32,298 nucleotides of DNA from a virus: IMG/VR virus record IMGVR_UViG_3300031975_000128, positions 1 to 32,298 of that record; one strand, 5' to 3'. Position 1 is the stretch's first letter. Every line of letters starts with the position of its first letter. The notes below the pieces were generated by a model. It was not told the origin of the DNA. It made no database searches and saw only the letters and a program-made list of their open reading frames with translations. A program made the position numbers and the translations under genes. Positions 1,480 to 31,434 of the stretch are shown here, piece after piece.

Positions 1480-1734
1480 ATGGCTGGTCATCCACTTAAA
1501 AAAATACAATGCGAAAGTATCGCAAGAACATCTGGCAAGCAGTGTAGAGCAAAAGGGTATTTAATGAAAAGTGGCCATTATCGTTGTCGCTTTCATGGTG
1601 GAGCTTCTACTGGCGCAACAACAATAGAAGGTAAGTTGATAGCTTACAAAAATTTAAAACAATTTAAGAATTTTACAAAAGAACAATTATTACAATGGAT
1701 CCAAAACAAACAAATGAAATCATCAAGCGTTTAG
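1480..1734 (+). CDS. HGG-motif small zinc-finger-like phage protein
   Basis: An 84-residue protein with C11, C22, C36 and H39, and an HGGASTGATT segment at residues 39-48 followed by EGK. This matches a common small phage protein family with the motif C..(8-10)..C..G......C..HGG.S.G..T.EG, usually encoded just before or among terminase genes. The cysteines and histidine probably bind zinc. It overlaps the next gene, terS, by 40 bases, which supports co-translation. The family's role is not established; the position suggests a packaging accessory or DNA-binding function. Confidence 0.7.
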   Translation: MAGHPLKKIQCESIARTSGKQCRAKGYLMKSGHYRCRFHGGASTGATTIEGKLIAYKNLKQFKNFTKEQLLQWIQNKQMKSSSV

Positions 1735-2123
1735 AGCTTGGCGAACCTTTATCCAAAATTACCAAAGATAAAAAACTTCCCGATGTCTCAACTGTCTATA
1801 AGCATTGTCGAGACAACAAGGATCTACACGATAAGATTATGCAAGCAAGGCAGACTGGCGTTTGGACTTTATTGGATAAGATTGCTGAAGATATGGAAGT
1901 ACCAAAGACACCACAAGAGACACATTTTTTAAGAGAGAAGTATTCACACATTAGATGGTTGGCGAGTAAACTTGCAGCTAAAACTTTTGGCGACAAGATA
2001 CAACAAGACGTTAAACAAGACACGACAATAACTGTGAGTTGGGGAAATCCAAATGATATGGTTAAAGCTAAAAAGATTGTGGAAGAAGTACAAACGACAT
2101 CTGTACCGAGCTTACCTGGTTAA
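1695..2123 (+). CDS. terS: Terminase small subunit
   Basis: A 142-residue protein. It has an N-terminal helix-turn-helix (residues about 5-40, EIIKRLELGEPLSKITKD then PDVSTVYKHCRDN), a middle helical segment (IMQARQTGVWTLLDKIAEDM) and a conserved-looking segment RWLASKLAAKTFGDK at about 88-102. This order (I..G..L..I.....P...TVY.WL, AR......D.I.EI.D, R.WLASKL.PK.YGDK) is the signature of the small terminase family found in phages of proteobacteria. It recognises the packaging start site and hands DNA to TerL. The start at ATG 1695 lies inside the HGG gene and lacks a clear Shine-Dalgarno sequence. TerL begins 597 bases downstream, separated by a non-coding spacer and two tiny genes. Confidence 0.85.
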   Translation: MDPKQTNEIIKRLELGEPLSKITKDKKLPDVSTVYKHCRDNKDLHDKIMQARQTGVWTLLDKIAEDMEVPKTPQETHFLREKYSHIRWLASKLAAKTFGDKIQQDVKQDTTITVSWGNPNDMVKAKKIVEEVQTTSVPSLPG

Positions 2124-2418
2124 CAAGTTGTAGGGTTTTTCCGTGTTTCTGTACTGGCGGCCATGATCCTCGTGCGTGCGTATGAGTTCGGAACAAAACA
2201 AGAACATTAGCTAGTAACTCCCTGGTTACTCTCTGGTTTAGTATAGAATTGTTGATTAACGCTAATAGTTGGTAAGATATAGATCTACGACCCATGTTTA
2301 CTGCATATAAAACAAGAACAATGCAAGAACATTTGATGGGGTATCCCCGCAAATGAGCCGCATATTTTTAAGTATATGTAACTTGGGAGTTCAGCACACA
2401 GACACAGACAGACACACT
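2124..2418 (+). other. Non-coding spacer between terS and terL; candidate packaging/regulatory site
   Basis: About 295 bases without a convincing gene. From 2149 to 2191 the sequence is clearly richer in G+C (26 of 43 bases) than the surrounding genome. The short sequence CAAGAACA occurs three times (2199-2206, 2313-2320, 2324-2331), the first two as AAAACAAGAACA. A perfect inverted repeat GGGGTATCCCC lies at 2338-2348. An inverted-orientation tandem repeat lies at 2213-2235 (separate entry). A weak promoter-like pair, TTGATT (2252-2257) and AGATAT (2275-2280) with 17 bases between, is also present. In a packaging-gene context this could be the cos/pac site or a promoter with operators; neither is proved by the sequence. 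Confidence 0.45.
2213..2235 (-). repeat. Tandem GAGAGTAAC-type repeat pair, inverted copy of the att-region repeats
   Basis: Read on the minus strand this stretch is CAGAGAGTAAC followed directly by CAGGGAGTTAC, two copies of one 11-base unit. The same unit appears on the plus strand as tandem pairs at 29503-29526 and 29699-29722. On the plus strand the copy here also makes a short dyad, AGTAAC..GTTACT (2213-2230). It may be an operator for the phage regulator or an arm-type recombinase site. Confidence 0.5.
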
Positions 2419-2621: not shown

Positions 2622-2720
2622 ATGGAAAAAATAATTAACGAAGTACAACACTATTTAAAAGATCATAAAAAAGTAGTCGCTGGCGTTATTGTTATTCTAG
2701 TAATTGCTATAATTTTATAA
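2622..2720 (+). CDS. Tiny single-pass membrane protein (32 aa)
   Basis: Residues 1-17 are charged (MEKIINEVQHYLKDHKK) and residues 18-32 form a strongly hydrophobic helix of V, I, A and L that runs to the C-terminus. A perfect AGGAGG lies at 2612-2617, five bases before the ATG, and the TAA stop overlaps the terL start (TAATG), so translation of the two is coupled. The strong ribosome-binding site and the coupling are the main reasons to call it real. Its function is unknown. It may also serve as a leader that delivers ribosomes to terL, which has no good ribosome-binding site of its own. Confidence 0.6.
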   Translation: MEKIINEVQHYLKDHKKVVAGVIVILVIAIIL

Positions 2721-4000
2721 TGCACATCCAGATACCTTATACACCTCGGCCATTACAAGCGAAGCTGCATGAGGATTTGGATAAACATCGGTTCGCAGTA
2801 TTAAATTGCCATAGAAGGTTTGGCAAAACTATTTTGGTTATCCTACATTTGATTAGAAAAGCTCTAACTAATGATAAGAAAAACCCAAGGTATTATTTGA
2901 TCGGGCCAACATTCGTTTCGATTAAAAGAGTTTGCTGGGATTATCTAAAGCAATACGCTGGTTGTATTCCTGGTACTACATTTAACGAAACAGAATTAAG
3001 ATGCGATCTGCCAAATGGCGCAAGGATTACTCTGCTATCAAGCGAGGATCCAGATAAGATTAGAGGAATATATGCAGACGGAGTTTGCATAGACGAGTGC
3101 AGCCAGATGAACCCGATACTTTGGCACGAAATTATAAGACCCGCATTATCTGACAGAGAAGGCTTTTGTTATTTTATTTCAACACCAGCTGGAATGTCTA
3201 ATATATTTTATGAGCTATACCAATATGCTTTAGGAGATCCAAAGTGGTTAGCTTACACAGCAAAGTCATCAGAGACAAAACTGATAGACCAAGAAGAATT
3301 AGACGCTGCCAAAGCACAAATGGGGGAAAGTAAATTTCTCCAGGAGTTTGAGTGCGATTGGATAGCTAATGTTACGGGAAGTATTTATGGAAAAATAATA
3401 CAAAAGTTAGAAGATAACAAACAGATAACCAGGATTGCTTATGATCCAAGTTTATTAGTAAATACTGCTTGGGATTTAGGTTATGGAGATAATACGGCTA
3501 TAGTTTTTTTTCAACAAGTTGGTAATCAAATAATGATTATCGATTATTATGAAAACAACAAAGAAGGTTTGCCGCATTATGTTCAGTTTATAAAAGATAA
3601 AGATTATGTTTATGGCGAACATTATGCGCCACACGATATAGAAGTTACAGAATTTAGTAATGGTAAGACAAGACGAGAGATTGCTTATCAATTAGGAATA
3701 AGATTTAGGGTACTGCCAAAACTGCCATTGGAAGATGGCATACATAATTTAAAAATGGTGTTACCTAAATGTTGGTTTGATGCAGATGCTACCAAACCAT
3801 TAATAGCTGCATTAAGACATCATCATCGAAAGTTTAACGACAAGATGAGAATTTTTAGTGCAAAACCCGTTAAGGATTTTAGCTCACACGCTTGCGATGC
3901 TGCAAGATACATGGCTACTTCTTTATCGGAATTACCAAGACAAAAAATGGCTGAACAAAAGACAGCCGAAAACGATTACGCAATACACCAGGAGAAATAA
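2720..4000 (+). CDS. terL: Terminase large subunit (ATPase and nuclease)
   Basis: A 426-residue packaging motor. The N-terminal ATPase has an adenine-binding type Q motif near residue 13 (RPLQAKL), a Walker A-like RRFGKT at 32-37, Walker B with catalytic glutamate VCIDE at 122-126, and a coupling motif STPAG at 154-158. The C-terminal nuclease domain begins around residue 249 with WDLGYGDNTAI, the first acidic motif of the RNase H-like terminase nuclease; later acidic residues occur in HDIEVTEF (about 313-320) and SHACDAARY (near 392). The protein cuts concatemeric DNA and drives it through the portal. Its length is short but normal for podovirus terminases. The start codon overlaps the stop of the 32-residue membrane protein. 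The location before the portal gene differs from T7, where terL is at the far end of the late region. Confidence 0.95.
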   Translation: MHIQIPYTPRPLQAKLHEDLDKHRFAVLNCHRRFGKTILVILHLIRKALTNDKKNPRYYLIGPTFVSIKRVCWDYLKQYAGCIPGTTFNETELRCDLPNGARITLLSSEDPDKIRGIYADGVCIDECSQMNPILWHEIIRPALSDREGFCYFISTPAGMSNIFYELYQYALGDPKWLAYTAKSSETKLIDQEELDAAKAQMGESKFLQEFECDWIANVTGSIYGKIIQKLEDNKQITRIAYDPSLLVNTAWDLGYGDNTAIVFFQQVGNQIMIIDYYENNKEGLPHYVQFIKDKDYVYGEHYAPHDIEVTEFSNGKTRREIAYQLGIRFRVLPKLPLEDGIHNLKMVLPKCWFDADATKPLIAALRHHHRKFNDKMRIFSAKPVKDFSSHACDAARYMATSLSELPRQKMAEQKTAENDYAIHQEK

Positions 4001-29400: not shown

Positions 29401-29477
29401 TGGTCTGGGTGGCTGGATTTGAACCAGCGATCCCTAGCTCCCAAAGCTAGTGCGTTACCAGGCTACGCTACACCCAG
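29401..29477 (-). tRNA. tRNA-Pro (anticodon TGG)
   Basis: Read on the minus strand this is a complete 77-base cloverleaf: acceptor CTGGGTG/CACCCAG (7 perfect pairs), D-stem GCGT/ACGC, anticodon stem CTAGC/GCTAG around loop TTTGGGA (anticodon TGG), variable loop GGATC, T-arm GCTGG-TTCAAAT-CCAGC, discriminator A and an encoded CCA. It starts with C1 as bacterial tRNA-Pro does. No mismatch or gap is seen, so it should be functional. Phage genes flank it on both sides, with the integrase/regulator cluster upstream of its 5' end. Phages of this type often integrate into tRNA genes, so it probably coincides with the attP core or supplies the tRNA-Pro restored after integration. Confidence 0.93.
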
Positions 29478-29502: not shown

Positions 29503-29526
29503 CAGAGAGTTATCGGGGAGTAAATG
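29503..29526 (+). repeat. Tandem GAGAGTWA-type repeat, pair A
   Basis: CAGAGAGTTATC followed directly by GGGGAGTAAATG: two 12-base units of the same family as pair B (29699-29722) and, inverted, the terS-terL spacer copy at 2213-2235. Confidence 0.6.
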
Positions 29527-29648
29527 ATGTATCAACGTGATAACAGCTAGGAAAAACAACCCTTATTTTATAACCTTTTTGGTAAATAAAATTTGTCTAA
29601 TTGTGGTTGTAAGTGTTATATAACAACGATAATTAACAAAATGATTGG

Positions 29649-29673
29649 TAGGTTCGAATATTACGAATACCTA
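29649..29673. promoter_or_regulatory. Imperfect dyad, possible operator
   Basis: TAGGT (29649-29653) and ACCTA (29669-29673) are complementary, and inside them TTCG (29653-29656) and CGAA (29664-29667) also match. The centre is AT-only. The 25-base size and two-fold symmetry suit an operator or recombination-factor site. It lies between the two repeat pairs. Confidence 0.4.
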
Positions 29674-29698
29674 TTGGCACACAACAATTCTAAACTAT

Positions 29699-29722
29699 CA
29701 GAGAGTAAACGAGAGAGTAAAC
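29699..29722 (+). repeat. Tandem GAGAGTWA-type repeat, pair B
   Basis: CAGAGAGTAAAC followed directly by GAGAGAGTAAAC: two 12-base units differing at one position. A looser pair follows (TGAGGAGTAAAA at 29754-29765 and CGAGGGAGTTGC at 29770-29781), but the second of these overlaps the terminator stem and may be coincidental. Confidence 0.65.
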
Positions 29723-29770: not shown

Positions 29771-29801
29771 GAGGGAGTTGCTAGCTCCCTCTAGTTTTTT
29801 T
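29771..29801 (+). terminator. Rightward intrinsic terminator between convergent operons
   Basis: GAGGGAG (29771-29777) pairs perfectly with CTCCCTC (29785-29791) over a seven-base loop, and TAG plus seven T follow (29795-29801). It would stop late transcripts that pass the tRNA before they enter the leftward regulator and integrase genes. On the minus strand no good T run follows, so it is mainly unidirectional. Confidence 0.8.
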
Positions 29802-30225
29802 ATAAATTATATATTTTTATTGGTTCTTTATCTGCTACTGGATCTTTAAATGTATTCTCGCCAGCTAGCTCTCGGTTTAATTTAGGCATTAGAGGCGCAT
29901 AGAGACGTTGTAGCCTACGTTCTTCAATAATGTTAGCTTCTATCTCACGAAACTTTTTAGCTACCATATCTTGCTTAAATAAAGGTATTTGTTGCAGCAC
30001 CATTTCTGGATCTCCATTGTATAATAAATTTATATCCCAGCCTTCTTGTTTAGCTAAAACAAATAACTTATCAGAACCAATGCCATTCAAGGCTTTTTCA
30101 TATTTCTGTATCTGCTGAAACGAAACCTTTACTGCTTTAGATATTTTTGTTTGAGTTTTACCGCTTATGGTTCTTAAAACGAACATCATTTTTGCTATTC
30201 GTTCCTTCTCTTGTAGTGCTGGCAT
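29800..30225 (-). CDS. XRE-family transcriptional regulator (candidate phage repressor)
   Basis: A 141-residue protein with an N-terminal Cro/CI-type helix-turn-helix (about residues 12-60): MMFVLRTISGKTQTKISKAV, VSFQQIQKYEKALNGI, SDKLFVLAKQEGW. The recognition helix is around FQQIQKYEKA. The rest is charged and helical, without the S24 peptidase domain of LexA-type repressors, so control by self-cleavage is not expected. It is encoded three bases after the integrase and in the same direction, with an AAGGATGA at the integrase end as ribosome-binding site. It could be the lysogeny repressor or a regulator of integrase/excision. Candidate binding sites are the repeats and dyad just downstream (29503-29722) and in the terS-terL spacer. 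Confidence 0.8.
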   Translation of the reverse strand: MPALQEKERIAKMMFVLRTISGKTQTKISKAVKVSFQQIQKYEKALNGIGSDKLFVLAKQEGWDINLLYNGDPEMVLQQIPLFKQDMVAKKFREIEANIIEERRLQRLYAPLMPKLNRELAGENTFKDPVADKEPIKIYNL

Positions 30226-30228
30226 CTA

Positions 30229-31434
30229 TCATCCTTGCGTTATTTGATTAATAGCAGCTTTTCTTTGTTTCTCATTCAAATTCAAATCTCTGATGTAGTT
30301 AGCTTGTCTAATATCTTTAGAGTTACCAAATCTATTATCCATTTGCTTATCAGTTAAAATTTTAAGTTCTTCCATTCTTGATATGCTCCATTTTCTAAAA
30401 GGAGACATCCCGTTTGGCCAATGGATCCCTAATCTTTTAGCAGAAACTTTAACTCTTTTTCTAGCTCCGTGGATAGGTACATTAAACACTCTTTTAAATG
30501 TTCTTTTTTCCATTTTATTTATATCTGGATTATTAAAAGTTACGTTTCTATGTGTAATTGGAAACATCTGTGCCTTCATCCATATACCAAACAACTCCAA
30601 ACATTGATCTGATACTTCTACAAATCTTCTTTGGGTCTTTACCTGGTAGGGTCTAAAGTTATTTTCTTCATTAATTGAGTGATCTAAAAACACACCACCA
30701 GAATTAAAATCTACATTTTCATAACAGATCCCAAGAAGCTCACTTAATCTAGCTCCAGTTTCAGCAGCACATTTGTATAAAGTTTTAAGTTGTATATCTG
30801 GTTCCTTATTTACAACAGCTAACAGCTCTGGAGTTGTAGGCATCCACTTGATTTGAGTATTGTAATCTTTAAAATATTTTGGCCCGAATTTAAAATTAGC
30901 AATGGTGTAATCAATCTTCCATTGTCTGCTGGCACAAAAATTTACAAATTTTTTAAATTCTAATACCGCAGCTCTAATAGTTACTCTACCAATGGTTTCA
31001 GTTTTTTTCTTATAGAAACCGAACCCATTTTTTTTAACCCATTGTAGAGCTTTGCTATTTTTAATACCAAGTAAAGTTACTTCTCTAAAATCTGATAGTA
31101 AGTAGTCTGCTAGATATTGTTTATTGATATGGGGTCTAACATGATTGTTAATATATGCAATCTGCATATCTTTATATTTAGATGTTGTGTCTGGATCGCT
31201 ATTAATAACTTTAAAGTATTCATCAAAAGCAAAATTAAATTCTATTTTTTGATCGATGACATCTATTTTATCTGAATTTTCTAGTTTAGATCTTAACGCT
31301 TCAGCTTTTCTTTTTTCATTCAAACCAAAAGTTTCTTTGTTTTGCTTTTTAGTTTTGCCGTTTACCTGGTAAACAACTTGAACGCATAGTTTTTTACCGC
31401 CAGCTCTATCAACAGTAACAACTTGAACTTTCAT
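30229..31434 (-). CDS. int: Tyrosine recombinase (phage integrase)
   Basis: A 401-residue protein. The N-terminal part (about 1-50) could be an arm-binding domain, residues about 66-175 the core-binding SAM-like domain, and 200-401 the catalytic domain. Visible catalytic residues are R229 (ETGARLSELLGI), K266 (YQVKTQRRFVEV), R347 (SPFRKWSISRM) and nucleophile Y380 (DIRQANYIRDL). The histidine usually three residues before the second arginine is a serine here (S344), and the residue after R347 is lysine. It catalyses integration and excision between attP and attB; the tRNA-Pro about 750 bases away is the likely site. An ATG start follows a GGAGG that lies inside the end of the upstream gene. 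The C-terminal HTH-like region after Y380 is short. Confidence 0.9.
   Translation of the reverse strand: MKVQVVTVDRAGGKKLCVQVVYQVNGKTKKQNKETFGLNEKRKAEALRSKLENSDKIDVIDQKIEFNFAFDEYFKVINSDPDTTSKYKDMQIAYINNHVRPHINKQYLADYLLSDFREVTLLGIKNSKALQWVKKNGFGFYKKKTETIGRVTIRAAVLEFKKFVNFCASRQWKIDYTIANFKFGPKYFKDYNTQIKWMPTTPELLAVVNKEPDIQLKTLYKCAAETGARLSELLGICYENVDFNSGGVFLDHSINEENNFRPYQVKTQRRFVEVSDQCLELFGIWMKAQMFPITHRNVTFNNPDINKMEKRTFKRVFNVPIHGARKRVKVSAKRLGIHWPNGMSPFRKWSISRMEELKILTDKQMDNRFGNSKDIRQANYIRDLNLNEKQRKAAINQITQG

Follow-up and report, generated by a model that had tools for sequence, protein, structure and literature searches.

Integrase-type sites lie between the terminase genes of a temperate marine phage

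Our analysis makes it likely that the tyrosine integrase (Int) of a marine SAR11-type phage recognises three sets of sites, the third of which is a half-attP whose most likely role is to let its occupancy control the terminase region. According to the model that we propose, the N-terminal domain of Int would recognise three sets of paired arm-type sites of 11-12 bp. Two sets would flank the core of the attachment site attP and serve integration and excision, and the third, combined with a core-like palindrome at a distance of 44-45 bp, would constitute a half-attP between the terminase genes terS and terL. The stretch of DNA that we analysed (the window) is a virus sequence record of 32,298 bases from a temperate phage of the HTVC010P type. 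Its terS gene (1695-2123, plus strand) encodes an Sf6-like small terminase subunit (PF20901, phrog_1482), and terL (2720-4000, plus strand; phrog_2) encodes a large subunit that is 61-63% identical to the TerL proteins of HTVC010P and HTVC034P. At the other end of the window, the minus strand carries, in this order, the int gene (30229-31434, 401 residues), an adjoining XRE-type gene (29800-30225; phrog_8, transcription regulator), a non-coding stretch and a complete tRNA-Pro(TGG) gene (29401-29477, detected by ARAGORN). Because int and the XRE-type gene lie on one strand and just three bases apart, they are probably transcribed together. Many HTVC010P-type phages carry integrases according to the available part of PMC11094077, which names the prophage PNP1, and no integrase is reported for the HTVC010P-related genomes in the available part of PMC6811365.

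Int scored 30 bits against PF00589, above the curated cut-off of 27, and has the catalytic residues R229, K266, R347 and Y380 of a tyrosine recombinase, which are kept in 35/35 sequences. These residues set it apart from a structural match, MrpR (YopR), the master repressor of SP-beta, which in the accessible text of PMC10516654 is described as a regulator of tyrosine-recombinase fold that acts on repeated phage sites and has lost recombinase residues. Divergence was seen at the box II His position (Int residue 344), occupied by Ser in 29 and Ala in 6 of the 35 relatives, and at the last His/Trp position (residue 371), where 18 have Trp and 17 Asn. As judged from structural models, the N-terminal ~52 residues of Int likely form an arm-binding domain. 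They were predicted to comprise three strands and a helix, and the full-length model aligned to lambda Int from residue 2 (Z 16.5, rmsd 8.4, 296 aligned). For the N-terminal domain alone, the best Foldseek match was an integrase arm-type domain, a weak hit with an E of 0.28, and structural alignment yielded a Z of 3.9 (rmsd 3.0, 54 aligned). A comparison with 50,697 phage records returned no relatives for the window Int or for the Int of lineage G027 (G numbers denote lineages and L numbers individual loci), and one weak partial match for that of G011a.

Three tandem pairs stand out from the rest of the window

The initial annotation had placed paired sites at 29503-29526 (CAGAGAGTTAT CGGGGAGTAAA, period 11), at 29699-29722 (CAGAGAGTAAAC GAGAGAGTAAAC, period 12) and, on the minus strand, at 2213-2235 (CAGAGAGTAAC CAGGGAGTTAC, period 11), and these sequences are indeed present there. 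Counting single units proved uninformative as evidence, since GAGAGTWAM with at most one mismatch occurs 30 times in the window and 30.5 occurrences are expected by chance. An unsupervised tandem scan of the att and spacer regions was blurred by A/T-rich runs, several of its diagonal matches being of low complexity, and was replaced by a scan with a tandem-pair matrix, which was derived from relatives and excluded the window from its building. This matrix ranked 29699-29722 first, 2213-2235 second and 29503-29526 third in the window, with scores of 45.6, 41.6 and 39.2, as compared to 14.1 for the fourth-best place. Dinucleotide shuffling (200 rounds) never raised the best score above 32.8 or the third best above 21.3. 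These values bear out the earlier view that the pairs are unlikely to arise by chance, and the low score of the next place shows that equally good copies are not scattered through the genes. Related phages conserve the sites as well: wherever an integrase relative extends over attP, both att pairs are kept, and the spacer pair recurs in the majority of TerL relatives. In the long loci L155, L158 and L171, both att pairs and the spacer pair take the three highest tandem scores; a G013-type spacer pair ranks second in L108, and a G007-type spacer pair lies outside the top four in L075.

Two of the pairs flank the attP core

That both right-hand pairs are attP arm-type sites of the integrase is supported by their spacing and order, which correspond to the layout expected of attP. 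Between the int-proximal pair 1 (29699-29722, plus strand) and pair 2 (29503-29526, plus strand) we located a core (29643-29669) with tRNA T-arm-like half-sites around a 7-bp centre (29653-29659). This core had been overlooked in the initial annotation, as had the palindrome, described below, that accompanies the spacer pair and resembles the core. With the core centre at 29656, the distances are 42 bp to pair 1 and 133 bp to pair 2. Wherever the att region of a lineage is complete, the core sits between both pairs, and the succession of pair 1, core and pair 2 holds for each of the 11 core-bearing lineages compared and for three G013-type loci. Read in the orientation of int, the order is int, the XRE-type gene (where present), a hairpin, pair 1, core and pair 2; when int relatives are aligned across the att region, both pairs are constant and the tRNA is variable. 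Pair 1 has a period of 12 and pair 2 a period of 11, but 12 in G015. The core is T-arm-like around ATTCGAA or ATTTGAA, and in some lineages extends into a longer stretch of tRNA 3' end. Pair 1 is 42-43 bp from the core centre in 9/11 lineages and 52-53 bp in the other two, and the core centre is 132-133 bp from pair 2 in 10/11 lineages and 153 bp in one. For the three G013-type loci, the corresponding distances are 51, 62 and 62 bp on the pair 1 side and 133 bp throughout on the pair 2 side. Departures from the usual spacings amount to approximately whole helical turns.

Arm-type repeats flanking a core with inverted half-sites are the arrangement of a lambda-type attP. In lambda-type attP sites, and in the mycobacteriophage attP as described in the available text of PMC10865867, paired short arm-type sites likewise flank a tRNA-derived core, and the integrase likewise has an N-terminal arm-binding region, which is predicted here. 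Unlike in those systems, the phages studied here have an extra arm pair and a core-like palindrome far off, between terS and terL, that are kept across lineages.

We rejected the complete tRNA-Pro gene as the attP core because the core lies between both pairs in all lineages examined, including those lacking the tRNA gene. Beyond pair 2, a complete tRNA-Pro(TGG) gene is found in the 10 lineages whose T-arm core is short (the window, G001, G004, G005, G011a, G027, G028, G029, G031 and G033) and is absent where the core has a long tRNA 3' end (G007, G011b, G030, G032, G015 and L150, which is of the G013 type). This pattern fits the tRNA-dependent lysogeny described in the part of PMC10865867 available to us. 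The hairpin between pair 1 and the XRE gene (29771-29797) has the plus-strand sequence GAGGGAG...CTCCCTC with T after it, and one repeat-like GAGGGAGTT is reused in it; in some relatives, a third tandem unit immediately precedes the att hairpin. A scan of genome contigs with the Int alignment yielded no host attB site or prophage, and 0 Int matches were obtained in further genomes at the phylum (398), order (3) and class (385) level; these searches were run without a positive control. The tRNA T-arm pattern matched three genomes, none of them SAR11 by title.

The spacer pair changes together with attP

The third pair (2213-2235, minus strand) lies in the spacer between terS and terL and recurs at this place in relatives, where its unit varies. 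When attP and spacer units are read side by side, the window and G004 have GAGAGTAA, G005 has GGGAGTAA and GAGAGTAA, G007 has GTCAGT at attP and GACAGT in the spacer, and G011a has GGGGAGTAA and CGGGAGTAA. The unit is AAGTGTG in G015, GAGTGTG in G013, GAGGATTA in G028 and G029, and GGAGAGTAA and AGAGAGTAA in G027; GAGAGGATTATCAGAGGAT is common to the spacer and attP of G028. The weakest resemblance between the two places was seen for G030 (AGAGTG).

We then derived a matrix from the attP of each lineage and scanned the spacer region, which comprised 740 bases per lineage (511 in G015). The top tandem match was the spacer pair in 11/11 lineages. In 8/11, its score was reached by 0/200 shuffles; the remaining three (G007, 77/200; G030, 16/200; G013, 8/200) are unexceptional when taken alone. 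Importantly, the pairing of each spacer with the attP of its own genome surpassed permuted pairings, which did as well in 0/100,000 cases, or in 11/40,320 when one lineage per unit type was retained. The permutations covered 11 lineages, which share ancestry, and up to eight repeat units, the sites having been spotted by eye before the matrices were made. The spacer unit therefore matches that of the attP in the same genome and changes with the integrase. One contig (G011, 69.7 kb; L098/L132/L133) carries two different integrases about 38.6 kb apart and one TerL match. It probably represents two related phages joined in assembly, and for this reason only the Int and spacer that are about 9 kb apart were used.

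On the strength of these sequence comparisons, the spacer very probably provides Int with a second binding site, and there is strong support for assigning all three places to the integrase. For the spacer module as a whole, comprising the pair and the palindrome described below, we are highly confident that it would be bound by Int.

The repeat unit follows the N-terminal domain of Int

The similarity of the units among 11 lineages correlated with that of the Int N-terminal domain (r 0.56, p 0.001) and, more weakly, with that of the remainder of Int (r 0.35, p 0.008). Over 8 lineages, the correlation was r -0.06 (p 0.61) for the XRE protein and r 0.51 (p 0.027) for TerS. Mosaic integrases separate the two parts of Int. 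Compared to the window, G004 is 88% identical in the N-terminal domain and 51% in the remainder and retains the unit, whereas G007 is 50% identical in the N-terminal domain and 71% in the remainder and has a changed unit. In a further comparison, G011a and G015 share 97% identity in XRE and 91% in TerS, and only 29% in the Int N-terminal domain, and their units differ at both loci. As judged from these comparisons, the unit follows the Int N-terminal domain and not XRE.

The initial annotation had offered three readings of the repeats, namely operators of the XRE regulator, integrase arm-type sites, and sites of a packaging protein. The second applies to both attP pairs and, unexpectedly, to the pair in the terminase spacer as well. 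TerS, taken as the packaging protein of the third reading, is an unlikely binder, given the differing units of G011a and G015 at 91% TerS identity. The operator reading found no support, since the unit is not tracked by XRE, G011a and G015 have different units with almost the same XRE, and no XRE-length open reading frame was found directly after int in G027, G028 and G029, in which the module is nevertheless present. XRE was thus dismissed as the binder of the unit. A wider version, in which XRE or an excisionase binds attP and a promoter in the manner of RdfS, could draw on the spacer palindrome, which might serve a dimeric repressor, and on the precedent of RdfS from ICEMlSym, a recombination protein that binds both attP and regulatory regions elsewhere (PMC11963761, in the text available). 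However, RdfS belongs to the winged-helix directionality factors and lacks a clear consensus (same source), while the sharp paired units found here track the integrase. Moreover, the core is flanked by pairs on either side, at distances typical of Int, and the unit follows the N-terminal domain through the Int mosaics. Together with the behaviour of XRE itself, this makes any regulator other than Int improbable.

The spacer module has the layout of half an attP

Next to the spacer pair lies a core-like palindrome (2268-2292), GTTGGTAAG ATATAGA TCTACGACC, with a 7-bp centre at 2277-2283 and half-sites that resemble the attP core. The distance from pair to palindrome is 44-45 bp in 11/12 lineages and 54 bp in G013, and resembles that between pair 1 and the core in attP (42-43 bp, or 51-53 and 62 bp). 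In G027, G028 and G029, the module is inverted relative to the terminase genes and the 45-bp spacing is kept. By chance, 11% of shuffles contain a lenient palindrome, with 4/5 pairs matching, at one of the six offsets allowed. Resemblance of the spacer half-sites to the attP core of the same genome exceeded permuted pairings (p 0.001-0.024 over nine settings). In G004, GTTCGTAGG-N7-CCTACCAA is found at both the attP core and the spacer palindrome; the G015 palindrome is unlike its attP core. In no listed lineage with both is the 7-bp centre the same as the attP overlap, and among related loci this centre is less conserved than the half-sites, in a count that includes one false-match row (5 loci, GCTAAAAAG). 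Judged by this composition of an arm pair and a core-like palindrome, the spacer module is a half-attP, similar to attL.

To assess its distribution, we considered the 63 loci with at least 620 bp upstream among 78 tabulated TerL loci (80 returned). The module is present in 51/63 by inspection, an automatic criterion having given 54/63, from which L110, L118 and L119 were dropped as false. L074 passes at another offset only, its palindrome at 44 bp being weaker. The module is absent in L070, L094, L110, L111, L114, L118-L123 and L125. These 12/63 loci would suit the idea that the spacer pair is a relic or a chance resemblance, such as an old integration scar. A relic, however, would neither go on changing in step with Int through several specificities nor hold a near-helical spacing in both orientations, and we regard this origin as highly improbable. 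Neither the pair nor the palindrome was found in four integrase-less isolates of the HTVC010P type, HTVC034P, HTVC010P, Greip and HTVC028P, the last of which has just 412 bases upstream in its record.

Possible role of the module at the terminase genes

The sequence comparisons establish that the module exists, has a fixed geometry and co-varies with attP and the Int N-terminal domain; from these properties we infer that Int occupies the module in the cell. Since the module resembles half of attP, Int should be able to bind it by its N-terminal domain and its core-binding part. As the 7-bp centre is not that of the attP overlap, we expect the module to be bound but not to recombine with attP. 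That occupancy by Int controls the adjacent terminase region, at the start of packaging or in late transcription, is a plausible but tentative proposal. In a lysogen, Int could occupy the module and hold back packaging or late transcription, and packaging would wait for prophage excision or for dilution of Int. A control site would fit the place of these Int-type sites beside the terminase genes, their absence in the four integrase-less isolates and their indifference to orientation. In its most specific form, the integrase would act as a licence for packaging or late genes, holding the half-attP in lysogens, blocking the action of terminase on the integrated prophage or its expression from it, and releasing the block on excision. 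We put this forward with some reserve, as an idea that falls short of probable. A promoter search of 2050-2450 yielded only one match, at chance level.

The main rival is that the module is a second recombination site. Cre-loxP of phage P1 is an example of a recombinase site in a phage genome other than the chromosomal attachment site. By analogy, Int might recombine two copies of the module, located in terminal redundancies or multimers, and thereby circularise or resolve genomes before integration. The core-like inverted repeat at attP spacing would be in keeping with this. Two copies of the site of one genome would have identical 7-bp centres, and a centre less conserved than the half-sites is expected if matching itself suffices. 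A drifting centre is equally compatible with a pure binding site, however, and only one arm pair is present. Unlike loxP, the spacer combines an arm pair with the layout of a half-attP, and any recombination at it is hypothetical. Genome ends were sought from contig ends (298 taken, 132 mapped), which showed no genome-wide pile-up and just an inconclusive cluster of six ends at 2381-2427, which an insertion polymorphism at that place could also explain. In view of these points, we consider a loxP-like function rather unlikely, and favour binding of Int with control of the terminase region.

A recombinase has been reported at the start of DNA export of its own element before, as the integrase of Tn916 was described at oriT as well as at att (PMC9371924, available part). 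Tn916 concerns conjugation, whereas the present case concerns packaging and is argued from co-variation. The same source notes that the 2006 work on Tn916 Int and oriT used a truncated relaxase, and itself questions the role of the integrase. No description of an integrase site at terminase genes was found in the titles and abstract openings of the literature searched. Integrases are usually viewed as acting at att sites only. A second Int site that co-evolves beside the terminase genes would directly link lysogeny to packaging in a highly abundant group of ocean phages, and would open to testing how a prophage escapes packaging in situ. If the integrase does act as a licence, the DNA specificity of one protein would be under selection at two distant loci simultaneously. 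The matched switches of unit also offer natural data on how integrase N-terminal domains discriminate between arm sites.

Further elements of the spacer lie downstream of the module (2338-2417, plus strand). They consist of a GGGGTATCCCC inverted repeat, an A/T run and CACACAGACACAGACAGACA, are common to relatives in alignments, and are candidate packaging or promoter signals. Similar elements persist, by eye, in the integrase-less isolates. A small open reading frame before terL (2353-2613) probably starts at the ATG at 2419 (MDNEIKNK) and not at 2353, as indicated by the sequences of relatives. Many relatives (L050, L046, L057, L076 and others) have an additional open reading frame of ~90 codons, absent from the window, that directly follows CACACAGACACAGACAGACA and lies between the spacer and the small open reading frame.
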